Shown here piece by piece: positions 3,395-61,893 of a stretch of DNA of 64,000 nucleotides (position 1 is the first letter of the stretch; each line of letters starts with the position of its first letter). The notes beneath the pieces were generated by a model that saw only the letters and a list, made by a program, of their open reading frames with translations, did not search any database and was not told where the DNA came from. A program made the position numbers and the translations under genes. This stretch comes from Nymphaea colorata (taxonomy: Eukaryota > Streptophyta > Magnoliopsida > Nymphaeales > Nymphaeaceae): assembly GCF_008831285.2 (NCBI RefSeq), contig NC_045141.1:9475353-9539352 (forward strand), in the 5' to 3' direction.

Positions 3395-3451
3395 TGATAG
3401 AAATGTAGCACCAATATCTGTAACCCGAAAACAGCACTCACGCAGGAAGAT

Positions 3452-3500
<49 letters not shown>

Positions 3501-3858
3501 ACAAGAAGAAACTGAGGAGAAGAAGCCGTAGCCAAAATGGTTTGCACGGCCTCTATTTATAATCCCATTTCCAGAATTCTAAGAGTCTCCAATCGTAGAA
3601 TCCTAGGAGATTTCACAAGCTCCAAGGACATTAATTACATCATAGAAACCTAAAAGACTTCACATATTACAAGGATATTAACTACAACATAGAATCCTAG
3701 GAGACTTCCCATATAACAAGGATATTAACTACAACATAGAATCCTAGGAGACTCTTCACATGTTACAAGGACATTAAATATTTTAACACATTCTACAAGG
3801 AGGTAGAATCCTAAGAGACTCCTCTTCAACGTGCTGGTGAAGGATTTATATTTTAACA
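3395..3858 (-). repeat. 3' LTR of the young copia element
   Basis: This 464-bp LTR matches 8394..8859 except for a GA run of 37 instead of 39 bases (3458..3494). On the minus strand it starts TGTTAAAATATAAATCC and ends TTTCTATCA. A TATA box (TATAAATAG on the minus strand, 3553..3561) sits in the middle. The U3 part holds degenerate tandem copies of about 47 bp; two near-identical ones start at 3670 and 3717. Confidence 0.96.
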
Positions 3859-6800
3859 CCCTCCCTCAAGTTGTACATGGTTTTGCACCATGTACAACTT
3901 GCCTTTTAAAAACCAGAATCGTTCCTTTGTTAATCCTTTTGTAAATAAGTCTGCAACTTGTTCATCTGTACGAACATAAATAGGCTGAATCTCCTTGTCT
4001 TCCACCTTTTGTCTAACAAAGTGTTGATCAATCTCAATGTGCTTTGTTCGACCATGTTGTACGGGATTAAAGGCAATGTTAATAGCGTTTTGATTATCGC
4101 ACATTAACATTGATGTTTTAATCTTTTCTCCAATGTCTTCTAGCAAATGTCTAACCCATGTAACTTCAGCAGTACCTGCAGCCATGCATCTGTATTCAGC
4201 TTCAGTGCTGGATCTTGCTACTGCCTTTTGCTTTCGACAACTCCAAGACACAAGATTACGTCCAATGAAAATACAAAAACCAGAAATGGACTTTCTTTGA
4301 TCGGGATCTCCAGCCCAATCTGCATCTGTGAATGTCATAAGTTGATGTCCAGTAGTTATATTTTCACTCTTACCATAAACTAAGCCATCTCCTGCTGTCC
4401 CTTTAAGATATCTTAATATTCTTTTGACAGCATCCATGTGAGTATCTCTAGGTGCATGCATAAATTGGGATACTTGATTCACAGCATATATAATATCTGG
4501 TCTAGTAAATGTAAGATATTGAAGTGCCCCAACAATACTTCGATATTGCGTAGGATCTTCATATAACTCCCCATCTTGAGCACTTAGTCTTTGATTTAGA
4601 ACACTAGGAGTTCCAACAGGCTTACAATCAGACATACCTGACTTTTTCAACAGATCCAACGTGTATTTCTGTTGTGTCAATGTGAGGCGATTATTGTGCC
4701 TATCAATCTCCACTCCAAGAAAGAATCGTAAATCACCAAGCTCTTTCATTTTGAAGTTTTGCATCATCAAAACTTTAGCTTCTTCTATGTGTTTTTCTGA
4801 ATTGCCTATGATAACAATATCATCAACATATATAAGAAGTAAAGTAAATATGTTTTCCTTTCGATAAATGAAAAGAGAGTGATCTAGAGGACATCTCCGA
4901 AAACCACATTCTTGAATCTTGCAAGAGAAACTGTCAAACCACGAACGTGAGGCCTGTTTAAGTCCATAAATAGATTTTCTTAGTTTGCAAACCCATGCAT
5001 GAGAGTCTCCTTTCGTGTATCCTGGAGGTTGTTCCATATATACTTCCTCCCTTAAATCACCATGAAGAAAAGCATTCTTCACGTCCATTTGATGTAGTCT
5101 CCATCCATATTCAACTGCCAATGATATAATCACGCGAATTGTTCCCATTTTGATCACAGGGCTGAATGTCTCATCATAATCTTCTCCATATTGTTGTGTA
5201 AACCCTTTTGCTACTAACCTTACTTTGTGTCTTTCTATGCTGCCGTCAGGTTTGTATTTAATTTTGTATACCCATTTGGAGCCCACTACGTTCTTTTCGT
5301 GTGGCCTTGGAACGATCTCCCATGTTCCACATTCATGCAAGGCATCCATTTCTTCTTTCATAGCCTTTCTCCAATGATGTGATTTTGATGCTTGATCAAA
5401 TGAAGTAGGTTCTTCCTCCTTGCCAACTTTTGCCATGAATAACTGAAAATCAAGTGATAAAGAATCATAGCTAACCCACCTGTGAATGGGATGACGAATG
5501 CGTTGGGATCTTCTAAGGTGGGGCATGTTGTCTTCTTCACTGTGAGCATCTCTGTCCCTTAGTCGTCGACTGTAGATAAGGCCCGAATACCGATGTGCAT
5601 CGTTGCTCTGTTCTTCATTATTGTTTTCGTGATGACTTGATGACTGTGTTGGATCTTCTTGATTTTCACTTTGAGCCATATCCGATGGTTGTATTGCTCT
5701 CTCTGAATCTTCACTTTGAGGCACATCATTTTCTATAACAGGATCTGCATTGAATAACTGTGTACTGGTCCAGGGATCATAAGATTCAATGGTCATAGGC
5801 ATTTCATTTGTATTATCAAAACTATGTTCATCAAAAATGACATTTCTTGAAGTTTTGATACGTTTAGTTGTTGGATCATAGCATCGAAAACCTTTATATT
5901 CATCAGCATATCCAACGAATCTACATTGAATAGCTTTGTCTTGAAACTTGTTCCTCAAGGCAGCATCAACGTGAACATAGCATACACAACAAAAAACCTT
6001 CAAGTTCTTGTAATCAGGTTGTTTGCCTAAGAGTGTAAAATATGGCGATTTAGACATCAAGAGTGTCATAGGCAAACAATTTATTATGTATACAGCAGTA
6101 TGGAAGGCTTCAGTCCACAAGGAAATGGGCACATTAGTATCATGCATCATGCTCATGGCGCTTTCAACTATATGTCGATGTTTTCGCTCAACTACACCAT
6201 TTTGTTGTGGTGTGTAAGGGCAGGAAATTTGTCTAGTTATCCCTTTTTCACGTAGAAATTCAATAAAATCAAGCGAGGAATATTCTCCCCCTCCATCACA
6301 TTGAAAATGCACCACATTGGATGAAAATTTAGTTTGAATCATGGCATAGAAGTTTCGAAATATGTGAGGTACTTCTGATTTGTGTTTCATGAAGTAAATC
6401 CAGGTGAAACGTGAGTAAGAGTCAATGAATAAGACATAATATCTTGACCCAGACATGGAATCAATAGGGGCTGGCCCCCATACATCAGAAAAAATAGTTT
6501 CAAAAGGTTTGGAAGCCCTTTGATTTATATTATGGAAAGGTAAAACATGACTCTTACAAAGTCCACAACTTGAACATTTTTTGACACTTGAAGTAAGAGG
6601 TAAACTTGATCTTGGAATGAGACTATCTGTGACAAGTTTTTCAATGAAATGTCGACCACAGTGTCCTAGCCGACTATGCCACAAATCAAACTCCAAAAAT
6701 TGGTTAGGGCCCCTTACTTTTGATTGAAAATGGCAAGAACTTGGCACTGATGACGCATTATGAGAAAGAGAAAATGTCTTCAATCCTATATCAAAAGTGG

Positions 6801-8172
6801 ATGAATCCTTGGGTAGACATTCCTTGAGGACGTACATATTCCCTTGACGCTCCCCTCTAGCGAACATTTTCTTCGTTTGGAGGTCCTTGACATAGACAGA
6901 AGAAGGTGTGAATTCAACAGAAGAGCTTGTATCATCAATGAGTTTAGAAATGGATATGATGTTCTTTTTGATATTGGGAGCAAGAACAACATTAGACAGT
7001 GATAGAGACGAGGATGACAATGGAATATGTGCATTTCCAATATGTGTAATAGGATGAGATTTTCCATCACCTGTTATAATGCAACTTCTACCGTAATGAG
7101 GGGATAAGTTAGTCAATTTACCTGCATTTCCTGTCACATGGGTAGCTGCACCTGAATCCAAGAACCATTCTCCCTGCTCATTTTGCTTTATAGTCATCTT
7201 TGAGAATGCGGCCATCAATAGCTGTTGCATATCTTCAGCGGTGGATTTAGAACTTTGTCCTCCTTGTTTATAATCATGTCTTACCCCTTTGTTTTTATTT
7301 TGAGGATTAAACCAACATTGTGCCTTCATGTGTCCTTTCTTGTTGCACTGAAAACAAATTGGTATTTTTCTTGAAGTATCCAAAGGAGACATACCTTGGT
7401 TATGTGGTGTTGGTAGAATGCCACGACCACCATGGTTGGAGTTCCCATGGCTCTTACCAAACTTTACATTCATAGCCAACACATTTTGGGAGTTCCCTTG
7501 ATCAGTCCTTTCAATGACTCTTTTCATATTCATTTCATGTTGGAGAAGTTTACCTTGTAGTTCGTTGAAGGAAGGCAGAACAGGAAGGACCTCAAGAGCT
7601 GTAATAAAAGCATGATAATCATGCCCAAGTCCATTCAAGGTTTGCTGCACCTTTTCCTTATCAGAAATGTTATTCCCTGAGGCAGCAAGTTGGTCTGCGA
7701 CGGCCTTAATACGCCCCAAATAATCCATGATAGACGTTGAACCTTTGCTCAAATTCTGAAATTCTTTCTTTAAGTACATAATTCGAGCTTCTGATATTTG
7801 GGAAAAGGTATCAGCAAGGGTTTCCCATAATTCTTCTGCAGTACAATCATCAGAAACTGAAAGTAACACTTGTTGAGATAAAGTGGACAAAATATACGCA
7901 ACCAGACTTTGATCACGTCTCATCCACATAGCATGTTCAGGATTGTTGTCTTCATGAACAGCAATAACTTCTCCTGCCTCATTTTTTATTTCCTGTAAGA
8001 CGGATATTGGTGGAGCCTTTGTTGAACCATCGAGATGTCCAAAGAGGCCTTGACTTCTTATGAAAGGCATGATTTGCCTTTTCCAGATCAGATAATTCTC
8101 ATGGTTGAGTTTTTCGGTAATAAGGTGAGGAAGAAAACTTGAGGACATGCTAGAATGCGAAAAGTTTTCCAT
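3853..8172 (-). CDS. Copia gag-pol polyprotein, intact
   Basis: This encodes the retrotransposon polyprotein of about 1,439 residues, uninterrupted. Gag (UBN2-type) occupies roughly the first 250 residues. A zinc knuckle of pattern CX2CX4HX4C lies at 273-286 and the aspartic protease DSG at about 339. A GAG-pre-integrase HxxLGH...CxxC region follows. The integrase catalytic triad is D563, D626 and E662, with 35 residues between D626 and E662. Reverse transcriptase carries YVDD at 1115-1118, and RNase H has TDADWAG near 1280. I chose the ATG at 8172 (MENFSHSS) because UBN2-type Gag similarity begins there. The frame stays open upstream to an ATG at 8271, but those 33 residues are hydrophobic and look like translated leader. 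No catalytic residue is missing, so the product could be functional. Confidence 0.95.
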   Translation of the reverse strand: MENFSHSSMSSSFLPHLITEKLNHENYLIWKRQIMPFIRSQGLFGHLDGSTKAPPISVLQEIKNEAGEVIAVHEDNNPEHAMWMRRDQSLVAYILSTLSQQVLLSVSDDCTAEELWETLADTFSQISEARIMYLKKEFQNLSKGSTSIMDYLGRIKAVADQLAASGNNISDKEKVQQTLNGLGHDYHAFITALEVLPVLPSFNELQGKLLQHEMNMKRVIERTDQGNSQNVLAMNVKFGKSHGNSNHGGRGILPTPHNQGMSPLDTSRKIPICFQCNKKGHMKAQCWFNPQNKNKGVRHDYKQGGQSSKSTAEDMQQLLMAAFSKMTIKQNEQGEWFLDSGAATHVTGNAGKLTNLSPHYGRSCIITGDGKSHPITHIGNAHIPLSSSSLSLSNVVLAPNIKKNIISISKLIDDTSSSVEFTPSSVYVKDLQTKKMFARGERQGNMYVLKECLPKDSSTFDIGLKTFSLSHNASSVPSSCHFQSKVRGPNQFLEFDLWHSRLGHCGRHFIEKLVTDSLIPRSSLPLTSSVKKCSSCGLCKSHVLPFHNINQRASKPFETIFSDVWGPAPIDSMSGSRYYVLFIDSYSRFTWIYFMKHKSEVPHIFRNFYAMIQTKFSSNVVHFQCDGGGEYSSLDFIEFLREKGITRQISCPYTPQQNGVVERKHRHIVESAMSMMHDTNVPISLWTEAFHTAVYIINCLPMTLLMSKSPYFTLLGKQPDYKNLKVFCCVCYVHVDAALRNKFQDKAIQCRFVGYADEYKGFRCYDPTTKRIKTSRNVIFDEHSFDNTNEMPMTIESYDPWTSTQLFNADPVIENDVPQSEDSERAIQPSDMAQSENQEDPTQSSSHHENNNEEQSNDAHRYSGLIYSRRLRDRDAHSEEDNMPHLRRSQRIRHPIHRWVSYDSLSLDFQLFMAKVGKEEEPTSFDQASKSHHWRKAMKEEMDALHECGTWEIVPRPHEKNVVGSKWVYKIKYKPDGSIERHKVRLVAKGFTQQYGEDYDETFSPVIKMGTIRVIISLAVEYGWRLHQMDVKNAFLHGDLREEVYMEQPPGYTKGDSHAWVCKLRKSIYGLKQASRSWFDSFSCKIQECGFRRCPLDHSLFIYRKENIFTLLLIYVDDIVIIGNSEKHIEEAKVLMMQNFKMKELGDLRFFLGVEIDRHNNRLTLTQQKYTLDLLKKSGMSDCKPVGTPSVLNQRLSAQDGELYEDPTQYRSIVGALQYLTFTRPDIIYAVNQVSQFMHAPRDTHMDAVKRILRYLKGTAGDGLVYGKSENITTGHQLMTFTDADWAGDPDQRKSISGFCIFIGRNLVSWSCRKQKAVARSSTEAEYRCMAAGTAEVTWVRHLLEDIGEKIKTSMLMCDNQNAINIAFNPVQHGRTKHIEIDQHFVRQKVEDKEIQPIYVRTDEQVADLFTKGLTKERFWFLKGKLYMVQNHVQLEGGC
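3859..3867 (-). other. Polypurine tract of the young copia element
   Basis: On the minus strand GAGGGAGGG lies immediately before the 3' LTR, where plus-strand DNA synthesis is primed. It doubles as the last codons of pol (LEGGC), and the stop codon is completed only by the first bases of the LTR (TGTTAA). Confidence 0.85.
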
Positions 8173-8381
8173 GACAGCAGAAAGGAATGGTATATAGGTA
8201 GAAGATGAGAGGGAAATAAGACACGATATAACAAGATGTGTCCTTGGGTAAGCAAGAAGAAAAAGGAACAAGAATTGCGCAAGAGAAAAGTAAATTCAGG
8301 ATAGAGACAAGATGAGAAAAGAGTTCTAACCAGATCAGACCTGTTTGGGCATTTCGTTTGGTAGAGATAACGTAACCTGGT

Positions 8382-8393
8382 GCTCTGATACCA
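8382..8393 (-). other. Primer binding site (initiator tRNA-Met)
   Basis: On the minus strand TGGTATCAGAGC begins directly after the 5' LTR end. This is the usual plant copia site complementary to the 3' end of initiator tRNA-Met, where minus-strand DNA synthesis starts. Confidence 0.92.
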
Positions 8394-8450
8394 TGATAGA
8401 AATGTAGCACCAATATCTGTAACCCGAAAACAGCACTCACGCAGGAAGAT

Positions 8451-8501
<51 letters not shown>

Positions 8502-8859
8502 ACAAGAAGAAACTGAGGAGAAGAAGCCGTAGCCAAAATGGTTTGCACGGCCTCTATTTATAATCCCATTTCCAGAATTCTAAGAGTCTCCAATCGTAGA
8601 ATCCTAGGAGATTTCACAAGCTCCAAGGACATTAATTACATCATAGAAACCTAAAAGACTTCACATATTACAAGGATATTAACTACAACATAGAATCCTA
8701 GGAGACTTCCCATATAACAAGGATATTAACTACAACATAGAATCCTAGGAGACTCTTCACATGTTACAAGGACATTAAATATTTTAACACATTCTACAAG
8801 GAGGTAGAATCCTAAGAGACTCCTCTTCAACGTGCTGGTGAAGGATTTATATTTTAACA
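8394..8859 (-). repeat. 5' LTR of the young copia element
   Basis: This 466-bp LTR carries the promoter of the element. The TATA box on the minus strand lies at 8553..8561. A GA run of 39 bases (8457..8495) lies downstream of it in the transcribed part. The rest appears identical to the other LTR. Confidence 0.96.
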
Positions 8860-10932: not shown

Positions 10933-10997
<65 letters not shown>

Positions 10998-30600: not shown

Positions 30601-30819
30601 CCTGTTATAATGAGGAAAATTGGGCAAGAACTTACTTAACTGAATGGCATTCCGCTTCAAGTCGACTAGGATGACAATTTCTGGTGCCTTCTCCTTGATC
30701 ATCCCAATCAGAACATGTTAGGCTGGTTCGGCCGCCATCCCATGAACATTCCTTGCAAAGCAAATCATTGAGTTGGAGGCTCCATTCCTCCCATCTAAAG
30801 GTCATCAACCAGAACCTCC
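27640..30819 (-). mobile_element. Decayed LINE (L1-type), 3' part with endonuclease and reverse transcriptase
   Basis: Reading the minus strand from right to left gives the pieces of a plant non-LTR element in correct order. Endonuclease remains lie at about 30820-30230 (VGVYLHLDFR, IICMDNFNFI). The linker 'AWRQKSQCKWLEEVDQNTQS' is near 29720, followed by reverse transcriptase 'SDKDSARGPGGFDNGFY' near 29450. 'FSPRHSLR' plus a stop plus 'GDP' is near 29030. The catalytic YADD box is near 28960. 'DLPISYLGIPLQKG' is near 28780, and the C-terminal zinc-binding region 'FLWGNSEDARDWHRVIWKK' near 28530. The 3' end near 27,640-27,690 has the 'ttaataaaggttggggg' tail style of plant LINEs. Stops and frameshifts are many, so it is dead. 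The 5' part continues at 40796. Confidence 0.9.
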
Positions 30820-31020
30820 CATTAGACGTTATGCAAATCAAACCTATATCGACAAGTGTATCTTTCCAAAATCTCACAGTTGTAAAATCCCTCTTTTGTT
30901 TCCTTGAGGATGAGATAACGCATGTACGTTATGCTCATTCTTGTATATATATATATTGTAATTTGTTAACAATGAATTCATCGAATTCTGTTTTTCTCTG
31001 TTCCTGCTCATAGTTTATCA
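30820..31020 (+). repeat. 5' LTR of the outer copia
   Basis: This LTR matches 40588..40795 with several small differences, including an indel in a T run and GTACGTTATG versus GAACGTTATG. A 'tatatatatattgtaa' TATA-like stretch lies near 30945. The first two bases are CA where TG is expected. Confidence 0.88.
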
Positions 31021-31034
31021 TGGTATCAGAGCAG
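31021..31034 (+). other. Primer binding site of the outer copia
   Basis: TGGTATCAGAGCAG starts immediately after the LTR. It is complementary to the 3' end of initiator tRNA-Met. Confidence 0.9.
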
Positions 31035-31045
31035 GTTGAAATTTG

Positions 31046-31267
31046 ACGATTCGGCCGAAGGAACAGCAAGAAGTCGTGGTTGAAGGTTTTCATGAAGCTT
31101 GTCAAGTACCACCACATCATGTGCACTCGCTACTCTCTTGACGTAGATCTCAAGGACGTCGTCACCCTCGACGCCCTTCAGTCCTGCAACAAGAAGATCA
31201 CCGCCGCCAAGGAGACAAAGTCTCGGCTAGAGTAAAGGTTAAAGCTCGGCAAGAACAAGTGGTTTTT
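31046..31267 (+). pseudogene. RPL27: Ribosomal protein L27 (eL27) 3' fragment captured in the copia leader
   Basis: In one frame the sequence reads [38 protein letters not shown] and [17 protein letters not shown], then a stop, then LGKNKWFF. This follows the C-terminal half of plant cytosolic 60S protein eL27 nearly residue by residue, with the characteristic '[18 protein letters not shown]' and the 'GKNrWFFTKLRF' tail. Upstream, 'gattcggcc' and following bases match the 'KDSAKKTAKK' part out of frame. One glutamate codon became TAA. No intron is present. The fragment starts about 12 bases after the primer binding site, so it is part of the element's leader. It breaks off at the inner copia insertion. 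Confidence 0.88.
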
Positions 31268-31509
31268 GATAAACAATGGACGGAAGACAACTGGAATTTG
31301 GTTAATTACATTGTAATCGAATTACAATATTTACACAAGAATGATCATAACGTCCAAGCGTTATCTCATAATCAGAAAAAAGGAAGAAAAAAAGGATTTT
31401 ACAACGGTGAGATCTTTGGAGAGATATTGCAACGGAGAGATATTGCAACGGAGAGATCTTGGAGAGATTCAACTTGCCTATATCAACTAGATTTGCATAA
31501 CGTCTAAGA
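31267..31509 (-). repeat. 3' LTR of the inner copia
   Basis: This LTR is 243 bp against 213 bp for its partner. The excess is due to a short internal tandem duplication and an A-rich expansion near 31376. Divergence from the partner shows an old insertion. Confidence 0.85.
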
Positions 31510-31541
31510 AGACTCCCCTTCAAGTTGAAGCTACTGATCAA

Positions 31542-34500
31542 TTAAGGCCAACCTCTCAACTTGAAAAATGATTCCTTTCCTAAAGGCTTTGTAAAGATAT
31601 CAGCAACTTGATTTTCAGAGTTTACGTGTTTGGTACAGATTTCTTTACTTTGGATTTTCTCGCGAACAACATGACAATCGATCTTTATATGCTTAGTCCT
31701 TTCATGAAACACCAGGTTTGCAGCGATATGTATTGCTGCATTATTGTCACAATGTAACTCCATAGGCTACTGATGAATGATTCCAAAATCTTTGAGAATA
31801 TGTTTTATTCAAGTCATTTCACAAGTGGCTAGAGCCATGGCTCTATACTTTGCTTCTGCTGAATATTTTGATACGGTGGATTGCTTTTTAACCTTCCATT
31901 ATATTGGGTTGTCTCCCATAAATATACAAAATTCGGAAGTTGATCTCCTTATCATTGGGCATGAGGCCCAGTCTGAGTCACAAAATCCTTTAACAACAAT
32001 GTTGCTATTAGATGATAAAAGAATACCATGTCCAGGCGATCATTTAATATATCAAAGGATGCAAAAAGCCATTTCCAAGTGAGTGGTACTTGGGTGTGCC
32101 ATGAATTGACTTAAAATGTGAACACTATAAAGAATATTCGGTCACATGGTGGTCAAATAGACTAGGCGACCAATGGTTTTTCTGAAGAAGGTAGGGTCTT
32201 CTAACAATTGACCTTTTTCGTCATCAGCCTTTAGATGTTGTTCCATTGGTGTACCATTCGGCTTGGCCCCACTATATTCAGCTTCTTGGAGAGTGTCCAT
32301 TATATATTTTTTTTGAGAAAGAAAAATTCCACGTTTTGACTTTGCAACTTCAATTCCTAAAAAGTATTTTAGTTCTCCCAAATCTTTCAATTGAAATTTA
32401 CCATTGATGATGACTTTCAACTGATCAATGGCTTGTTGATTGTCTCCTGCAATGTTAATGTCGTCAACATATACCACGATAAAAATACTGTCGTGCTCGT
32501 TAACCTTAGAGAACAAGGACTAATCTGCCTTAGATTGGGAAAAATCAAGGTGCTGAAGGAACTCAGTGAGTTTAAGAAACCAATTCTGAGATGACTGTTT
32601 CAACCCATAAAGAGATTTCTTTAGCCGATAAACAATGTTCTCCCATTGTCTGGTAAAACCAGGTGGAAAAGACATATATACTTCTTTCTTGCAAATCTCC
32701 ATGAAGGAAGGCATTATTGACGTCGACTTGATAAAGAGACTACCCTTTAATAGCAGCATTGGAAAGAAGACATTGAATAGTCGTAATTTTGGCAACGGGA
32801 GAAAAAGTCTTGGTGTAGTCGATGACTTCTGTTTGTGTATATCCTTTAGTAACAAGTCGTGCCTTATATCTGTCAATGGATCCATCGACTTTGTACTTGA
32901 TTTTGTAAACCCAGCGACAACCAATGGGTTTTTTGCGTGGTGGAAGAGAAGTGATTTCCCAAGTAGAGTTTGCCTCTAATGCTTGAAGCTCAGCATTCAT
33001 AGCATTTCTCCATTCCAGATACTGTATTGCCTCATTGAAGGATGATGGTTCTTGATTGTTGAGAATAGTAGTTAAAAAAGCTTGGTGACGGTGGGAGAAA
33101 TTATCAAGACAGAGAAAATGGTGCATTGAGTGATGTGTGGGTGTTGTAAAGTTAGTACCATTACCCGAATTAAAAGATTTGAGCGAGGTAGAGAAGAAGC
33201 ACCGATAGTCTTGTAGACGAGATGGTACCATGCGCTGCTGAGTAGAATGCCTTAATGGTAGGTGACTAACAGTGGTATCGTTGGGGTGAGGTTGTGGCAT
33301 AGCGGATGGTGGAGGTTCGTTTGGTAATGTTGACAGGGAGTTTTCATGTGGCAATGCGGTGGTAGTTGCATGAGATATAGAATCAGGACTAGGAAACAGT
33401 AAACGAGACCGTTTGGCAAGATGACAAATTGAACAATGTTCATCAACATGAGACAAATTAAGAAAACTAAATAAAGTTTTGAGTCTAGAGAAGGAAGGAT
33501 GACCAAGACAGTTGTGCCATAAGGTTGAAGAATCCAGCGTCACATGGGCAGAGGCTGGTTTCTCATTCTCCAATTTACCCTGCCCAATCATCCTCTTCGA
33601 GTGACGGTCCTGAACAATGCAACAAGAATCATTAAAAATAACATCACAGTTATTTTCAGTGACAGTTTAGGGACTGAAACAAGATTAAATGAAAAGGTTG
33701 GGACACAAAGAACATTGGATAACGTGAGAAGTGGATTTAACCGAACCTGTCCTATATGAGTGACAGGTGTAGTTGACCCATTTGGCATTTTAACAGGGTT
33801 ACAATCAGCTGGAATAGGAAAAAAGAGAATAAAAACGGAACTTGCCATGTGATGGGTGGCTCCGGTATCTATAATCCACCTTGGTGAATAAACAAAACAA
33901 GCAATAGGTTGGGATATCATACCTGCAATGTTCACCTTGGGAGTTTGTGTGTTTAAGAAATCCATGAATTGGCAGTACAAATATGGAGTGAAGCTGACAC
34001 CATCGGTTGGAGGTTTTGATGGTATATGAGTTGGCAATAAAGCATAAGAAGTTGAAGAGTTTACCTTAGGCGGTTGGCTTTGAGAATTAGAGATGCCCCT
34101 CTTACGAAAACCGTGAATGTGATAACATCAGGCCTTAGTGTGCCCCATTCTCCCACAATGTTCACATTGCAAACGTGATTTGCCTTTAAACTTAAGGTCC
34201 CTCTCATGATTTTGTCATTGAATGGCTGCAGCAGAAATGCTTTCGGATGGTAGAGAAACATGGACCTCTCGTTGACGCTCTTCTTGAACAAAACAAAGAA
34301 TAAGCACATGGAATAGAAGGCATTGGCTCCATAAGGAGGAATTGGCTATGGATAGCACTGTAGCTTTCATTGAGCCCCATTAAAAATTCAAGGAAACGTT
34401 GCTGTTCATATATCTCCTTAACTTGTCGCATGGCACCACAATCACATGCAGGCAAAATAACATATGAATCATACTCATCCCATAGAGATTTAAGCTGAGT

Positions 34501-34975
34501 GTAATAAACACCAATGGAAGACTGCAATTGTTTGCAGTTAATAATCTGTAGTTGTATATGATAAAGTCTAGGAGCATTGGATTGAGAAAAAGTGAGTTTT
34601 AAGTTCAGTCCAAACATGCGCTGTGTTGTTAGCATAAACGACTATTGATGACAAGGTTTTATTAAGGGAATTCAGCAGCCATGACAAGACCATATTGTTG
34701 CATCGCTCCCAAGAAACAACAAGAGATTTAGGAGATGTTGGCTTAGGAATGGAACCATCGGCAAAACCAAGTTTATTCTTGGCTGCCAAAACCATAGTCA
34801 TACCACGACGCCAAACTTCATAGTTTTCACCAGTTAAAGGTTGGGAAACAAGAACCGTACCAGGATTGTCTAAAGGATTGAGATAAAATGGATTGTCTTC
34901 ATCATATCCATGTTGAGGCGACTCTCCACCATGCGGAAACCATCCATCACCGGTGGGATTGTGCATCTGGTCCAT
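31542..34975 (-). pseudogene. gag-pol of the inner copia, broken, integrase core missing
   Basis: Gag starts at the ATG at 34975 (MDQMHNPTGDGWF) with 'NPFYLNPLDNPGTVLVSQPL', a UBN2_3/copia Gag signature. Protease keeps its active site (RWIIDTGATHH, near 33,885). The pre-integrase zinc region '[13 protein letters not shown]...[14 protein letters not shown]' then joins directly to 'PDSISHATT'. In the outer copy these points are separated by about 780 bp encoding the integrase core. Reverse transcriptase follows ([20 protein letters not shown], near 32,900) with YVDD intact near 32,470. RNase H remains end at '[15 protein letters not shown]'. Frameshifts and stops separate the pieces. Movement would have needed integrase from relatives. 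Confidence 0.85.
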
Positions 34976-35641
34976 TAGGTTTGCAATAAGGACATTCACA
35001 TAAAGTTCTTCACTTATCAGGCAGTCTGATCGCTTTCCCTTAAGCGAGGAGACAAGTAGAGTCAGAGTCGGCTGAAGCAGGGGACGTCTCACCCAAAACA
35101 GGGGACTTCTCTCCCAAAACAGGGGACCGCACAGGGACAGGCGGCTGGAAAAAGTGCGATTCCGACCGGCACAGGTGTCGGATTCGGTCGAGCACTGGAC
35201 CGTTGGAAGCACAACAAAAAGATGATGGTTCCTGTAGAGTCTCACGGCAACAGATGGTTGGTGGAAAAACGGTGAATTTCTGAAGTTGGCAGGTGGTGGT
35301 GTGTGCAGAAGAAAACTCTACAGCGATGTATTACGGAAATCTGGAGATTCCGGCTGGCTCAGGCGTCGGTTCTGGTCGAGCTTGGGCTCGTTGGAACCAG
35401 AATGAATGGAGGGTGCTGCCTGAGCACTATGGAGGCCAACGGTTGCCGACGCCGGTGGTGGCGAACAGAAGAAAAGGGGTGTAGGACTGTTGTTGAACAG
35501 AGGAAGAAGGGTCTGTAGTGTTTTGCTGCAAAGAAACACCAGCAAGACTTTTGTATTAGAATCCTGGTGCTGCAGAAGATCAAGATGGAGCAGATGCTGC
35601 CCGTGCTCGCCCTGGTCGATTTCGACCTGGTTCTGATACCA

Positions 35642-35854
35642 TGATAAACAATGGACGGAAGAAAACTGGAATTTGATTAATTACATTGTAAACGAATTAC
35701 AATATTTATACAAGAGTGATCGTAACGTCCAAGTGTTCTCTCATTTTCAGGGAAAGGAATTACAATGGTGAGATCTTTGAAGAGATATTGCAACGGTGAT
35801 ATCTTGGAGAGATTCAACTTGCCTATATCGACTAGATTTGCATAACGTCTAACA
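35642..35854 (-). repeat. 5' LTR of the inner copia
   Basis: This 213-bp LTR has TG...CA ends and the primer binding site adjoining at 35629..35641. On the minus strand it contains 'tataaatattgtaatt', a TATA-like region. Confidence 0.88.
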
Positions 35855-35855
35855 T

Positions 35856-36118
35856 TCTTCACACCTACGTGTGCTTCAATTAGTGTCTGCCGCTTTTGCA
35901 CCAAGGATCTCAACTTGTCTGTAGTGAAATTCATCCCCTAGAAATTGACCCTCGGAAGCAATTTTCGTGCCTTGGGTCTTGCTGAATAGGGTTTTGCCCA
36001 TTGTGCGAACATTGAAGATCGACGGTGCCTTCACACCGTACCAATCCTTCTTTAAGAACTGATCAACAGTCTTCTTTGCCTCCCTTCTTCCACTTTGATA
36101 TCCTCTTCATCATTTTGT
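35856..36118 (-). pseudogene. RPS3A: Ribosomal protein S3a (eS1) fragment captured in the copia leader
   Basis: The minus strand reads [11 protein letters not shown], then after a frameshift [40 protein letters not shown], then SEG. A jump follows to [20 protein letters not shown] and AHVGVK. This matches plant 40S protein eS1/S3a from near its N-terminus. About 55-60 codons between 'KIASEG' and '[13 protein letters not shown]' are missing. The frameshift and the deletion kill it. No intron interrupts the matched parts, although I recall plant S3a genes having introns; that suggests an RNA source. It lies antisense in the leader of the outer copia, head-on to the L27 fragment. Confidence 0.88.
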
Positions 36119-36404
36119 TTCGGCCCTCTGCGTTCCTTTGCATGGAGTTTCAGCGATGGCCAAAGCTTCAGTTCTGAATCGGCGGCCCCTTTTCTGAATT
36201 CTTCCAAAACAGGGAGGTGAGAGAAAGTGAAGAGAGAGGGACAGAGATATTCCCCTTGCTGCTGCGTCGTCCTCTCGGACATTTTCTCTCCTCAAGCGTC
36301 CGCAGGAGCTATTGTTCCCCAACTTGACTTTCTTTTCTGGTTATAGGTCTCTCAATTCTCCCTTCTTGACCTCCGGCACTCTGGACATCTGATTCTTATT
36401 GCCC
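36119..36404 (+). other. Remaining leader of the outer copia
   Basis: These bases lie between the ribosomal protein fragment and the gag start at 36405. No coding similarity was seen, and the inner copia's leader looks different. Confidence 0.4.
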
Positions 36405-39400
36405 ATGGTTGATCACAACAACGTGCATCACATTGGTGGAGAATCGTCTCAACATGGAGAATGACAAGCCATTTTATCTCCATCACTCGGACAACCCCTG
36501 GTATGGTCCTTGTTTCCCAACCTTTAATTGGCGAAACTATGAAGTTTGGCTTCATGTTGTGACTATGGCTTTGGCAGCCAAGAATAAACTTGGTTTTGTC
36601 AATGGGTTTATTCCTAAACCAACATCCCCTAAATCTCTTGTTGTTTTTTGGGAGCGATGTAACAACATGGTTCTGTTGTGGCTGCTGAATTCCCTTCACA
36701 AAACCTTGTCGTCAACAGTAGTTTATGCCCACAACACAACACATGTTTGGACTGAATTTAAAACTCTTTTTTCTCAGTCCAATGCTCCTAGATTTTATCA
36801 GATACAACTGCAGATTATTAACTACAAACAATTGCAGTCTTCCATTGGTGTTTGTTATACTCAACTTAAAGATCTATGTAATGAGTAAGAATCATATGTT
36901 ATTTTGCCTACATGTGACTGTGGTGCCATGCGACAAGTTAAGGAGATACATGAGCAGCAAAGTCTGCTTGAATTTTTAATGGGCCTCAATGAAAGCTACA
37001 GTGCTATCAGCAGCCAAATCCTCATTATGGAGCCAACGCCATCTATTCCACGTGCTTATTCTTTGCTTGTTCAAGAAGAGCATCAATGAGAGGTCTATGT
37101 TTCTCTACCCTCCGAAAGTATTTTTGCTGCAGCTATTCAACGACAAGATAATTGAGACCTTAATGCTAAGTTCAAAGGCAAGTCACGTATGCAATGTGAG
37201 CATTGTGGGAGAATGGGGCACACTAAGGCCCGCAGTTATCATATCCATGGTTTTCCTAAGAGGGGCATCTCTACTTCTGAAGGTCAGCAGCCTAAGGTAA
37301 ACTCTGCGACTTCCGATACTTTATTGTCGACTCATTCACCATCAAAGCCCTCAACTGGTGTCATCAGCTTCATTCCAGACTTGTACCACCAATTCATGGA
37401 TTTCTTAAATGCACAAACTCCCAAAGTGAACATTGCAGGTATGTTACCCCAGCCTATTGCTTGCTTTGTTTATTCACCAAGGTGAATTACATATACTAGA
37501 GCCACCCATCATATGGCAAGCTCAGTTTCTAGTCTCTCTTCTCCTATTCCAGCTAACTGTAATCTTGTTAAGATGCCAAATGGATCAGTCACACCTGTCA
37601 CTCATATAGGATAGGTTTGGTTAAACCCATTTCTCACCTTGTCCAATGTTCTTTGTGTCCCAACTTTTTCATTTAATATTGTTTCAGTCCCTAAACTTGT
37701 CACTGAAAATAACTATGATGTTATTTTTAATGCTTCTTGATCCATTGTTTAGGACTGTCACTCGAATAGGATGATTGGGCAGAGTAAGTTGGAGAATGGC
37801 CTATATGTTTTGGAGATTGAGAAACCAACTGCTGCTCATGTTACACCGGATTCTTCAACCCTACAACACTACCGTCTTGGTCACCCTTCATTCTCTAGAC
37901 TCAAAACTTTATTTAGTTCTCTTAATTTGTCTCATGTTGATGAACATTGTTCATTTTGTCGTCTTGCTAAACAATCCCGTTTACTGTTTGCCAATAGTTC
38001 TATTTCTACTACTAGATCTTTTCAATTGATTCATTGTCATATTTGGGGAGGCTTCCAAATGAAGTCATTTTCTAGTGCACATTATTTTTTGTCTATCGTC
38101 GATGATTTTTCTAGATCCACATGTTGCAAACATGATAACTTTTTTTGTAATTCAAAATTGTATTTGTATGGTGGGAAATCAGTTTCACATAAGGATAAAA
38201 GAAGATTCGCAGCGACAACAAAGTAGAAGTTTTTTCAAATGATATAATACAATTTTTTGCAAACCAAGGGCATAGAAAGACAACATTCTTGTGTCGGCAC
38301 TCCACGACAAAATGGAGCTGGCGAACGAAAGCATCAGGAACTCCTCAACATAACTCGTGCCCTTTAGATTTCAAGCCAAACTTCCTTTGAAATTTTGGGG
38401 AGATTGTGTTTTAACTGCAGCATATTTGTTAAATAGTTTGCCCACGAAACTATTAAAGGACAAAACTCCCTTCAAAATCCTTCACGGAAAACATCCAACT
38501 TATAATTATATTTGGACATTTAGTTGCTTATGCTTTGCTTACAATATTTCAAAACGTCATAAATTTGATGCTCGTTCGTGAAAGTGTGTCCTTATTGGAT
38601 ATCCATTTAGACAAAGTGCTTATAAACTTTATGATCTTGAAACACATGAAGTCTTTACAAGTCGGGACATTCATTTTGAAGAACTTGAGTTCTCTTTCTC
38701 TAGCATCCAAGATAGTGATAGTCAGCTTGTGTTGCCTCTCCCTACACATGAATCTCTTGAATATGAATACATTGTTCCTCGTCTTGATTCCATATCTAAT
38801 GGAACTACCACCACATTGCCACATGAAGACTCCCTGTCAATATCACAAAACGAACCTCTGCCACCCACTATGCCACAACCTGACCCCAACGATACCATTG
38901 TTAGTCATCTACAATTAACGCGTTCTACTCGGCAGTGCATGGTATCATCTTGTCTACAAGTCTATCAATGCTTCTACTCTACCTCACTCAAATCCTCTAA
39001 TTCAGGCAATGATACTAACTCTACAACGCCCACACATCACCCAATGCACTATTTTCTCCATCTTGATATTTTCTCCCAGCATCACCAAGCTTTTTTAACT
39101 ACTATTCTCAACAACTGAGAACCATCATAGGCAATACAATATCAGGAATGGAGAAATGCTATGGATGTTGAGCTTCAAGCATTAGAGGCGAATTCTACTT
39201 GGCAAATCACTTCTCTTCGCCAGGCAAAAAAACCCATTGGTTGTCACTGGGTTTACAAAATCAAGTATAAAGTTGACAGATTAGTTGAAAGATATAAGAC
39301 ACGACTCGTTGCTAAAGGATATACACAAATTGAAGGCATCGACTACACTGAGACCTTTTCTCCCGTTGCCAAAATTACAACTATTCGATGCCTCCTATCT

Positions 39401-40580
39401 ATTACTGCTATTAAATGGTGGTATCTTTATCAAGTCGACATCAATAATGCCTTTCTTCATGGAGATTTTCAAGAAGTCTACATGTCTCTTCCACCTGGTT
39501 TTACCCGATAAGGAGAGAACATTGTTTGTTGGCTAAAGAAATCTCTTTATGGGTTGAACAGTAATCTTAGAATTGGTTTTTTAAACTCACTAAATTCTTT
39601 CAACACCTTCGTTTTTCCCAATCTAAGGCAGATTACTCCTTGCTCTCCAATGTTAACAAGCATGGCAGTATTTTTATCATGGTATATGTTGACTATATTA
39701 TTATTGTAGGAGACAATTGACAAGCCATTGATCAATTGAAAGTTGTCATCAATGGTAAATTTCAATTGAAAGGTTTGGGAGAGCTAAAATATTTTTTGGG
39801 CTTTGAAGTTGCAAGGTCAAAACATGGAATTTTTCTTTCTCAAAAGAAATATACAATGGACATTCTCCATGAAGTTGGACATAGTGGGGCTAAATTTAGT
39901 GACACACCAATGGAACAACATCTAAAGATTGATGATGACAAAGGTCAATTGTTAGAAGACCCTACTTTTTTCAAAAAAATCATTGGTCGCCTAGTCTACT
40001 TGACCATCACACGACCAGATATTCTTCATAGAGTTCATATTTTAAGTCAGTTCATGGCACACCCAAGAACCACCCACTTGGAAATGGCTTTTCACATCCT
40101 TTGATATGTTAAATCGTCGCCTGGATGTGACATTTTTTATGTCATCTAATAGCAACATTGTTGTTAAGGGATTTTGTGACTCGGACTGGGCCTCATGTCC
40201 AATGACAAGGAGGTCAACTTCTGGACTTTGTACATTTATGGTAGACAACCCAATATCATGGAAGGTCAAGAAGCAATCCACTCTATCAAAGTCTTCAGCA
40301 GAAGCAGAGTATAGAGCCATGACTCTAGCCTATGGAATTACATTGTGCCAATAATGCAACAATACATATCGTTCCAAACCCGGCATTTCATGAAAGGACC
40401 AAGCATATAAAGGTCGACTGTCATGTTGTTTGCGAGAAATTCCAAAATAAAGAAATCATCACCAAACATGTGAACTTTGAAAATCAGGTTGCTAATATCT
40501 TTACATAGCCTTTAGGAAAGGAATCATTTTTCAAGTTAAGAGGTATGTTGGTCTTAATTGATTCAGGAGCTACAACTTGA
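36405..40580 (+). pseudogene. gag-pol of the outer copia, broken
   Basis: Gag begins at the ATG at 36405 and shows 'KPFYLHHSDNPW' and 'AAKNKLGFVNGFIPKPTSPK'. The zinc knuckle region 'CEHCGRMGHTKA' is near 37,200. The protease active site is destroyed: the inner copy has WIIDTGATHH, whereas here a TGA replaces W and the triad reads YTR. The pre-integrase region ([14 protein letters not shown], near 37,890) and integrase remains to about 38,580 (LPLKFWGDCVLTAAYLLNSL) are present. Reverse transcriptase ([20 protein letters not shown], near 39,260) has YVDY instead of YVDD near 39,690. RNase H remains include [17 protein letters not shown] near 40,190. Many stops and frameshifts make it long dead. 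Confidence 0.88.
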
Positions 40581-40587
40581 AGATGGG

Positions 40588-40795
40588 TGTTAGACTTTAT
40601 GCAAATCAAAGCTATATCAGCAAGTTGTATCTTTCCAAAATCTCACAATTGTAAAATCCCTCTTTTGTTTCCTTTTTTTTGAGGATGAAATAACGCATGA
40701 ACGTTATGCTCATTCTTGTTTATATATATATTGTAATTTGTTAACAATGAAATCATGAAATTCTGTTTTTCTCTGTTCTTGCTCATAGTTTATCA
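40588..40795 (+). repeat. 3' LTR of the outer copia
   Basis: This LTR starts TGTTAGACTTTATGC directly after the polypurine tract GAAGATGGG and ends TTTATCA. It is 208 bp. Confidence 0.9.
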
Positions 40796-41880
40796 CCTTC
40801 ACCCTCTATGGCATCAAGTTTTTTGTGCATAAACCCAACATTTCATTGTGAGAAACCTTTGGTCAGATGTCGACCATCATTTCTTGTCTGTCGTTTACCA
40901 TCTTTTCTGGCCACCTTCGCAAGCCTAGTTACAGAGTTTCTCTTTGAAGAGCTCTTTAGAAAATATGGGAGTGCTTGACATTTTCTTCAAAGCACTTAAT
41001 TCCTTGCATTTCAAACTACATTTGCCTTGATCTTACTCAGAGAGATAGGCCCGGACATGTCAAGTTTCCTTATCTCATCCCTTAGCGCAGCTGCCTTTGA
41101 CTCACCTGTCAAATGAGGTGGGTTTGCAACTTTGGACGCATCCAAAGACGTACCCTACTGCATCTGAACCGCTTCCCTACTGCTGATGTTGAGGGACTTC
41201 ATCGGACGCAGAGCCGGCCCTTCCACTGGTTTGGAGTGCTCCTCCTCTTCACCAGGGAGCATCTTCTCCGTAGGGTTAAACTGTTGATCCTTTGGCTGCA
41301 GGAGGTTAAACCTATTGGAGTTTGGCTCCACCTCTGGATTCTTACTACCCAACCGAGGCCTCCTCTTGGGAGTTTTATTTGTGCTCCAAGCATTTGGAGG
41401 GGCAACTACACCTCCACGTCTGAAATCAAGGTGAACCCCAAAGGAATTTCGACCTTAATATGAACAAATCCATAGCAAATCATGTCTCGAGTGTATGCAT
41501 TTGCTTCAATGAAGGTCACCCTATAGCTGAAGCACTAGTGATCTTTAAACATATATCTCGACCAGAGTTCCACCTGTAGCTGTAGCAGACGGATCTACAT
41601 GCAAACTTTGTTGGAGACTTCAATTTTTAGGCATTCCAAGAGTATGGAAATTGGTAATAAGTAGTTAGCCACCAACCAACCATCTCCCAGGTGACATTAT
41701 GAGGCAAATGTCTTCTTCAGACGAGCTCAGATGAGGAATAAACCTTTCCCAACGGAGGTAAAGTTCACTGTTGGCATTCCTATTCTAGCAGAGGTGCGAG
41801 TGTTTGGACTACCAAGAACTCTCTCACTGAACCTGAACCCTTTCTAATTGTAGTTCTTGCTCCTTGTCAAAATTTGGAAA
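40796..41880 (-). mobile_element. LINE 5' part (ORF1-like), continuation of 27640..30819
   Basis: On the minus strand, degenerate frames carry a pattern of plant LINE ORF1 (DUF4283-type): 'ANAYTRDMICYGFVHIKVEI' followed by 'LGFTLISDVEV' near 41,420-41,500. Upstream on that strand (higher coordinates) lie W- and L-rich remains that fit the start of ORF1. This half lies exactly beyond the outer copia's right LTR, as expected if that element split the LINE. The 5' limit near 41,880 is approximate and no target duplication was identified. Confidence 0.6.
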
Positions 41881-45437: not shown

Positions 45438-47136
<1,699 letters not shown>

Positions 47137-60753: not shown

Positions 60754-61893
60754 CTAAGTCACCGGAGTGCGGGTGCCGGTGCCGGTGCTGGCGTGGCGCA
60801 TCTTAAAAAATTTAGGTGCGGCGGTACGGGAAGACTATTTATTATTATAATGATTAATATATAATAATAATATGTTTGACAAAATTATCTCTAAACCATA
60901 AAATTATTAAATATCAAAATCAAAATTACATTTTTCTCCATTCCTTTCTTTCTTAATAAGGAGGTTAGGTTCCGGGTTGGAGGAAGGGGCAAAGCGTTCA
61001 GTAAGGAGGGTTATTCTTGTAACAGTTTTGGTTTTGGGTAAGTTAAATTAGATCAAAATCCAAATCCAGACCCGAACTATATCACTCGCCCGACCGGTTC
61101 CCCTTCCTCGTCTTCCTCTCTAATCTCTATGTCCCTCTTCCTTGCCCTCTCAATCTCACATTCCACAAGTGAGCATCGACACAGAGAAGAAGAGGAAGGA
61201 GCAGTGGCGGCGGCGGCGGTGCAGCAGGGCGGCGCTAGGTCTTCCTCCCGTCCTCACCTCTCTTCCTCCCTCTCCCATCCGTTTCCCCCTTTCCTCCCGT
61301 CCTCACCTCCCTTCCTCCCTCTCCCATCCGTTTCCCCCTTTCCTCCCGTCCTCACCTCCCTTCCTCCCTCCCTCTCCCATCCGTTTCCCCCTTTCCTCCC
61401 GTCCTCACCTCCCTTCCTCCCTCTCCCATCCATTTCCCCCTTTCCTCCCGTCCTCACCTCCCTTCCTCCCTCTCCCATCCGTTTCCCCATTTCCTCCCGT
61501 CCTCACCTCTCTTCCTCCCTCTCCCATCCTTTTCCCCCTTTCCTCCCGTCCTCACCTCCCTTCCTCCCTCTCCCATCCGTTTCCCCATTTCCTCCCGTCC
61601 TCACCTCTCTTCCTCCCTCTCCCATCCGTTTCCCCATTTCCTCCCGTCCTCACCTCTCTTCCTCCCTCTCCCATCCGTTTCCCCCTTTCCTCCCGTCCTC
61701 ACCTCTCTTCCTCCTTTGCTCTCCCTCTCCCTTTCCCCGAAATCGTCCCTTTCTCCCCCGGGTGCGGTTTGGGTGCGGGATTTTCATCGGGTGCTGATTG
61801 GGTGTGCACCTGGAGCGCACCCGCACCCGAACCCACACCTGCATCACGTCAGTGCGGGTGCGAGCTCAAAGAAAATGCACCCAGGTGACACAG
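60754..61893. mobile_element. Small hAT-like non-autonomous element carrying a minisatellite
   Basis: An 8-bp duplication GTTATACA flanks it (60746-60753 and 61894-61901). The left end reads CTAAGTCACCGGAGTGCG and the reverse complement of the right end CTGTGTCACCTGGGTGCA, matching at 13 of 18 positions. Subterminal zones contain repeated 'ggtgccggtgcc' (left) and 'gggtgcggg' (right). No transposase is present. The 1,140 bp are mostly a CT-rich 49-bp minisatellite plus GC-rich flanks, unlike the AT-rich surroundings. The TIR match is imperfect, so the call rests mainly on the duplication. Confidence 0.7.
61244..61737. repeat. 49-bp minisatellite, ten units
   Basis: Units beginning CCTCCCGTCCTCACC start at 61244, 61293, 61342, 61395, 61444, 61493, 61542, 61591, 61640 and 61689. 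The spacing is always 49 bp except one 53-bp unit with an extra CCCT. Units differ by single changes (CCCCC/CCCCA, CTCCC/CTCTC). One strand is almost purely pyrimidine. Confidence 0.97.

Follow-up and report, generated by a model that had tools for sequence, protein, structure and literature searches.

Pieces of three host genes, in both orientations, within the leader of a copia retrotransposon of Nymphaea colorata

The stretch of Nymphaea colorata DNA analysed herein, referred to as the window, comprises 64,000 nt (C4:9475353-9539352) of a 407.8-Mb genome assembly, and positions without a further label are those of the window. Its plus strand harbours a copia element, the outer copia (30820-40795), with LTRs, a primer binding site (PBS) and gag-pol. 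The 5′ LTR occupies 30820-31020, with its terminal TG reading CA, and the 3′ LTR 40588-40795; the pair displays 12 differences over 199 aligned sites (K2P 0.063). The flanks, CCTCC (30815-30819) and CCTTC (40796-40800), form a target site duplication (TSD) in which 4 of 5 bases are alike. Adjoining the 5′ LTR is the PBS (31021-31038; TGGTATCAGAGC followed by AGGTTG), which was compared with that of a second, inner copia and those of nine other loci, and which we take to be of the initiator tRNA-Met type. A gag-proximal portion of copia leader is found at 36382-36408, and gag-pol (36405-40587) contains matches to Retrotran_gag_3 (2e-10), gag_pre-integrs (7e-12) and RVT_2 (2e-30), each in a separate frame. 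With paired LTRs, a PBS, a 5-bp TSD (4/5), a copia-type gag and RVT_2, this is a Ty1-copia element.

The inner copia lies on the minus strand at 31268-35854, with LTRs at 31268-31509 and 35642-35854, and has the ordinary leader of the family. Its minus-strand flanks read AAGAA on one side and AAAA on the other, and it looks like an ordinary later insertion at a junction between two host-derived pieces, eL27 and eS1, described below. It was considered as a part of the mosaic itself and rejected, as the flanks fit a 5-bp duplication, with one base lost, in a pre-existing eL27/eS1 junction. The inner pair displays 20 differences over 212 sites (K2P 0.101), and its nominally higher divergence relative to that of the outer pair (0.101 versus 0.063; Fisher P 0.27) is the reverse of what nesting predicts. 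The inner 3′ LTR (31268-31509) carries two blocks of 16 and 14 nt that are extra to the 5′ LTR, one being a repeated GTTGCAATATCTCTCC-like unit, whereas LTR pairs are expected to be identical at the time of insertion. At 33378-33395, between gag_pre-integrs and RVT_2, the inner copia also lacks the stretch matching 38009-38774 of the outer copia, which is where an integrase core would be expected. Further repeats in the window include two direct repeats of ~466 bp (99.6 % identical, ~5 kb apart) at 3395-8859, probably a young LTR element; a tandem repeat with a period of ~98 bp and copies 92-93 % alike at 61242-61758; and a simple-repeat palindrome at 46049-46137, which also matches 10935-10963.

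When the inner copia is excluded, the interval from the PBS to gag in the outer element (31036-36382) amounts to ~760 bp and is host-derived almost throughout. It is a mosaic of seven main segments from three donor genes, in both orientations. The first is an antisense piece of the 3′UTR of the ribosomal protein gene eL27 (31036-31066; L003 1836 to 1806, 29/31), followed by eL27 coding sequence in sense (31067-31267; L003 1536 to 1736, 90 % over 201 bp, with one in-frame TAA). Beyond the inner copia, the body of a second ribosomal protein gene, eS1, is antisense (35856-36107), with exons 2 and 3 and portions of exons 4 and 5 fused and three introns absent. The eS1 5′UTR, through ATGGCC, then appears inverted relative to this body, in sense (36098-36161; L014 reverse complement 1457 to 1520, 59/64). 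Next, eL27 resumes in sense with its C-terminal end, stop codon and 3′UTR (36162-36202), in two pieces (1741 to 1769 and 1787 to 1797, 37/40) between which 17 nt of the parent are missing. A stretch from upstream of a MIRO-type gene, probably its 5′UTR, lies on the plus strand in gene sense (36211-36362; C5:23630339 to 23630188, 88 % over 152 bp), and an antisense piece of the eL27 5′UTR (36356-36382; 1343 to 1317, 23/27) completes the series. Four of the segments are contributed by eL27, which forms the scaffold that holds the eS1 and MIRO pieces.

A segment model with three donors and both strands scored one half of the mosaic at 148 and the other at 289. Fifteen base shuffles of each half reached at most 5 and 7, respectively, and two control stretches scored 1 and 0. 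It placed the eL27 coding piece at 31067-31264 (179/198 identical), the eS1 body at 35856-35943 (81/88) and 35947-36095 (134/149), the C-terminal eL27 piece at 36163-36202, and the C5 piece at 36211-36348 (122/138), which BLAST extends to 36362. The weakest piece is the eL27 5′UTR, with an E-value of 4e-4 against two donors and a score of 34, where 100 dinucleotide shuffles reach no more than 27. At the protein level, Pfam returned Ribosomal_L27e at 31047-31235 (E 1.4e-14). Two frames on the opposite strand matched Ribosomal_S3Ae, at 35876-36106 (5e-9) and 35677-35937 (5e-6; at 26.7 bits, below the family cut-off of 29.3). Two further candidates were set aside. An antisense MIRO stretch of 12 nt (AAAACAGGGAGG) ahead of the sense MIRO piece hints at another fold-back, but is too short to claim, and a reading of 36247-36205 as eS1 intron 1 (score 38 versus a shuffle maximum of 33) is of low complexity and was displaced by the longer C5 match.

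An earlier note, made from the letters of the window alone, had placed a sense eL27 fragment directly after the PBS, and an antisense eS1 fragment with an internal deletion beyond the inner insertion. The latter is borne out by the Pfam matches and by ~113 nt missing inside exon 4. The eL27 fragment is likewise real, although the first 31 nt past the PBS are antisense 3′UTR. The picture of two ribosomal messages is too simple, since both are present within a mosaic of three donors, seven main segments and both strands. Host sequence does not end at 36118, where the range given in the note stops, but runs to 36382; eL27 is not confined to the vicinity of the PBS, and eS1 is not simply antisense.

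Parental genes for all three donors were located in the assembly. For eL27, which has three full-length genome matches, the donor is the gene on C6, with 90 % identity versus 78 % for the two genes on C1. The eS1 donor is the C2 gene, the closer of two intron-bearing genes, with 88-95 % identity per exon stretch. The third donor region, C5:23630188-23630339 on the minus strand, lies upstream of a MIRO-type GTPase frame, with ~520 bp between it and the ATG, and from this position the piece is probably the 5′UTR of that gene. The name MIRO rests on a PDB match: residues 10-66 of the first 68 in the frame match Mitochondrial Rho GTPase 1 (E 4.7e-8), which accounts for two of the four sequences matched, the other two being RhoD. 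A Pfam search of three further frames of the C5 gene yielded no MIRO family, only two matches below their cut-offs.

The eS1 body carries the joins 1656|1755, 1860|2965 and 3102|3175 (L014 reverse-complement coordinates), with the introns exactly absent. As all three are GT-AG introns in the C2 gene, the eS1 piece is evidently RNA-derived. Exon skipping was considered for the ~113-nt loss and rejected, because the exons on either side of the intron are still joined and the missing bases belong to the interior of an exon. The inverted 5′UTR piece begins at 1457, ~30 nt past TATATAAA (1427); this is the spacing seen between a TATA box and the transcription start, so that the piece probably begins near the start, or cap end, of the mRNA. 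By contrast, the eL27 coding sequence has no intron in its C6 parent. The absence of introns from both fragments, as remarked in the earlier note, is thus informative for eS1, which has lost three, and uninformative for eL27, leaving eS1 as the only proof of RNA origin. Since no intron falls within the pieces from eL27 and MIRO, genomic DNA is a possible source for these. Overall, host sequence with parents on C6, C2 and C5 lies between the LTRs of the element, and an RNA origin is recorded by eS1.

Eight junctions connect the segments with each other and with copia sequence. As read by eye, five share 3-10 nt between the adjoining sources, one shares 2 nt, one has no clear overlap and one was not read to the base. 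The shared letters are TTGAA (5 nt) where copia sequence past the PBS meets the eL27 3′UTR, CAA (3 nt) between antisense and sense eL27, TCTTCAC (7 nt) between eL27 and eS1, ATATCCTCTT (10 nt) between the eS1 body and its inverted 5′UTR, and TTCTCCC (7 nt) between MIRO and the eL27 5′UTR. The CC (2 nt) at the eS1/eL27 junction is near chance. The eL27/MIRO junction is the one with no clear overlap, and has 8 nt (TCCAAAAC) assigned to no donor, whilst the return from eL27 to copia is the one whose overlap was not read to the base. At a random junction, overlaps of at least 3, 5, 7 and 10 nt have chance probabilities of 0.05, 0.005, 0.0004 and 8e-6, respectively. Microhomology, the feature looked for in template switching, is therefore present at the junctions.

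With regard to the conservation of this arrangement within the family, an assembly search with 35855-36440 returned nine matches, of which only the window matched as a whole, the others being parts of eS1 genes and the C5 donor. A search with 30822-31268 returned 27 matches, all of which were read; the eL27 piece matched only the window and the C6 gene. The leader of the inner copia gave at least 48 matches, the window included, with 40 of the 70 candidates scored. Twenty of these loci were read, one being the window, and 11 of the other 19 were set aside as they had no LTR match; copy counts are accordingly lower bounds. Eleven further copies have a matched 5′ LTR with readable sequence behind it; none of these carries the host pieces, and 10 of them have all or part of the ordinary leader. 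Six display LTR, ordinary leader and gag (L027, L028, L029, L030, L031, L036), two have LTR and leader with no gag in reach (L032, L035), and two show the LTR with only the initial 72-123 nt of leader (L074, L075). The mosaic as the norm of the family is thereby rejected; among the copies read it occurs once. At ~760 bp it is similar in length to an ordinary leader, two of which measure ~785 and 660 bp.

The one copy without a leader, on C7 (C7:14632453-14636015), has LTR and gag. After its PBS it reads AA and then TGGAGGTATGATCCCCATCACCCATGG, and in the outer copia the corresponding sequence (TGGACATCTGATTCTTATTGCCCATGG) stands at 36382, directly after the mosaic, with 19 of 27 positions identical. 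In unrooted trees, the outer and C7 copies group apart from those with ordinary leaders, with support of 98/96 (gag, 9 rows) and 100/97 (LTR, 14 rows). Judged by plain identity, however, the outer gag is nearer to four other copies, namely L027, L028, L029 and the inner copia (87-89 %), than to C7 (82 %), with L030, L031 and L036 at 80-83 %. No branch of the gag tree is longer than that of C7. The C7 copy (L073, C7:14632000-14636500) has ~25 nt between PBS and gag together with internal deletions, and its LTRs have branches of 0.074 and 0.073, exceeding the 0.024 and 0.038 of the outer element. The short leader may be a deletion private to C7, and a single relative hardly suffices to establish that a short leader is ancestral.

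Taken together, the mosaic leader was probably built while the element was being reverse-transcribed, by a series of template switches of which the first took place at the PBS. In the replication of LTR elements, plus-strand strong-stop DNA has its 3′ end at the PBS. A virus-like particle would have held copia RNA along with mRNAs or cDNAs of eL27, eS1 and the MIRO-type gene. The plus strand would have copied the LTR and PBS and then left the copia minus strand, its 3′ end (...GGTTGAA) annealing to TTCAA in the eL27 3′UTR and copying eL27. From there the growing strand may have hopped repeatedly at short matches, with antisense segments arising where mRNA was copied directly and sense segments where first-strand cDNA served as template. 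As sense segments need cDNA or DNA templates, switching amongst RNAs only cannot make the mosaic. The inversion within eS1, with its 10-nt match and probable cap end, would fit the 3′ terminus of a full-length cDNA, or its fold-back. The strand would finally have returned to copia just ahead of gag, and the product, with its LTR ends retained, would have integrated. Had pieces of double-stranded cDNA instead been end-joined ahead of integration, the outcome would look the same, and the finished sequence does not distinguish this from strand hopping. Precedents for such switching come from Tnt1, a copia element of tobacco reported to switch templates experimentally (PMC2923131), and from a model, as outlined in a review, in which co-packaged mRNA becomes the new template at sites of microsimilarity (PMC5408686). 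The earlier note had suggested template switching as the means by which host mRNA was captured, and this is the reading best supported by the eS1 introns, the junction overlaps and the timing of capture, albeit with more than the two messages envisaged.

This timing can be approached from the changes accumulated by the fragments. Polarised against its paralogues, the eL27 piece displays 16 changes of its own, 1 on the parental side and 3 that are ambiguous in 201 sites; its 20 differences are spread 9/3/8 over codon positions 1, 2 and 3, from which the piece looks unconstrained. Together with three eS1 stretches, and leaving out the UTR pieces and one short exon, there are 31 own, 4 parental and 4 ambiguous changes in 407 sites. 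If the element had integrated first, and a double-strand break in its leader had then been patched with cDNA by microhomology-mediated end joining, the fragments should not exceed the LTRs in changes. They do exceed those of the outer element (31/407 versus 12/398 site-lineages, P 0.003), and also the pooled LTRs (P 0.006), with the excess over the inner LTRs not significant (P 0.06). The mosaic does not, therefore, look younger than the insertion, and the counts, subject to a caveat of base composition, argue against capture after insertion and favour capture at or before it. Such a repair would account for the mixed orientations, the short overlaps and the 8-nt stretch TCCAAAAC, which suit end joining too. 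Against it, the inner copia, with LTR divergence similar to that of the outer copia, already sits within the mosaic, and the left junction lies within ~5 nt of the end of the PBS, where the PBS of the nearest relative, the C7 copy, abuts pre-gag sequence. Repair after insertion is thus considered unlikely.

The excess itself may bear on an alternative in which a progenitor, since lost or missed by the assembly, acquired the mosaic in a previous cycle and passed it on to the present copy by retrotransposition, as a leader already in place. Fragment divergence per lineage is 2-2.5 times that of the LTRs, as an older capture would predict. The same excess may, however, stem from faster mutation of GC-rich coding DNA, with 12 of the 20 eL27 differences being C>T or G>A, and no second mosaic copy was encountered in searches of the assembly. 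An earlier origin of this kind is accordingly held to be improbable.

Independent LINE-type insertions of processed pseudogenes, one after another in the leader, would account for an eS1 without introns. Other readable copies of the family indeed lack the fragments, as such later insertions would have it; yet neither a poly-A tract nor a target duplication of their own was seen by eye at the fragment ends in the junction alignments, and separate insertions are not supported for this reason. The pieces are, moreover, internal or 5′UTR, eL27 resumes beyond eS1, and the junctions share letters, which renders this explanation very unlikely. A chimera of the assembly, for which there is only the finding of the arrangement once in one assembly, is scarcely credible, as the pieces are 5-17 % off their parents and carry private changes, neither of which mis-joined gene reads would show, and the inner copia sits within the mosaic.

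The route by which host sequence enters LTR elements is mostly deduced from end products. The copy described here, for which serial template switching is the preferred origin, keeps the steps readable in its eight junctions, its changes of orientation, the exact splice record of eS1 and a probable stop at a cap end, whilst the C7 relative resembles an empty site at the PBS. This suggests a specific point of entry, namely the end of plus-strand strong-stop DNA. More tentatively, and as a generalisation that we would hold with considerable doubt, strong-stop DNA halted at the PBS might take host mRNA packaged alongside it as its next template and, hopping alternately between strands, assemble a new leader. 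A leaderless lineage could in this manner have regained a leader of near-normal length, and the interval between PBS and gag might be exchangeable as a cassette and especially prone to the entry of host sequence.

Capture of host genes by plant LTR elements is already known, and is evidently common, with 672 and 1,343 captured genes reported for elements of rice and sorghum, respectively (PMC3726574). As presented there, these are captured annotated genes rather than multi-source mosaics, and the terms 'ribosomal' and 'template switching' do not occur in the main text of that paper. No ribosomal-protein leader mosaic appeared in the literature surveyed, which was covered by title and the beginning of the abstract and mostly without subscription papers; it is on this basis that the alternating-strand architecture is regarded as the new element here. 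In Magnaporthe, chimeras of WEIRD, Mg-SINE and MGL similarly fuse up to three transcripts by serial template jumps, although the account in PMC2104539 describes LINE machinery, whereas the present mosaic is in an LTR element with a PBS, LTRs and a copia-type TSD. BARE-2 and Veju (Sabot and Schulman 2007, PMC1950507) also provide chimeric elements with TSDs that derive from reverse transcription; the complex insertions outlined in that work join retrotransposon RNAs together, whereas the partners in our case are host messages. A further likeness is to LTR-mediated retroposition (Tan et al. 2016, as relayed in the review PMC5408686), in which host mRNA is joined to element cDNA at microsimilarity; unlike the process as summarised there, the mosaic has three donors, eight junctions, both strands and four visits to eL27. 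In gene content it resembles Bs1 of maize, another plant LTR element, which carries portions of three host genes (PMC13317346). In the mosaic, the pieces alternate in strand. Unlike Bs1, as portrayed in that source, the pieces are mainly from ribosomal protein genes, fill the interval between PBS and gag, and have no demonstrated reading frame.
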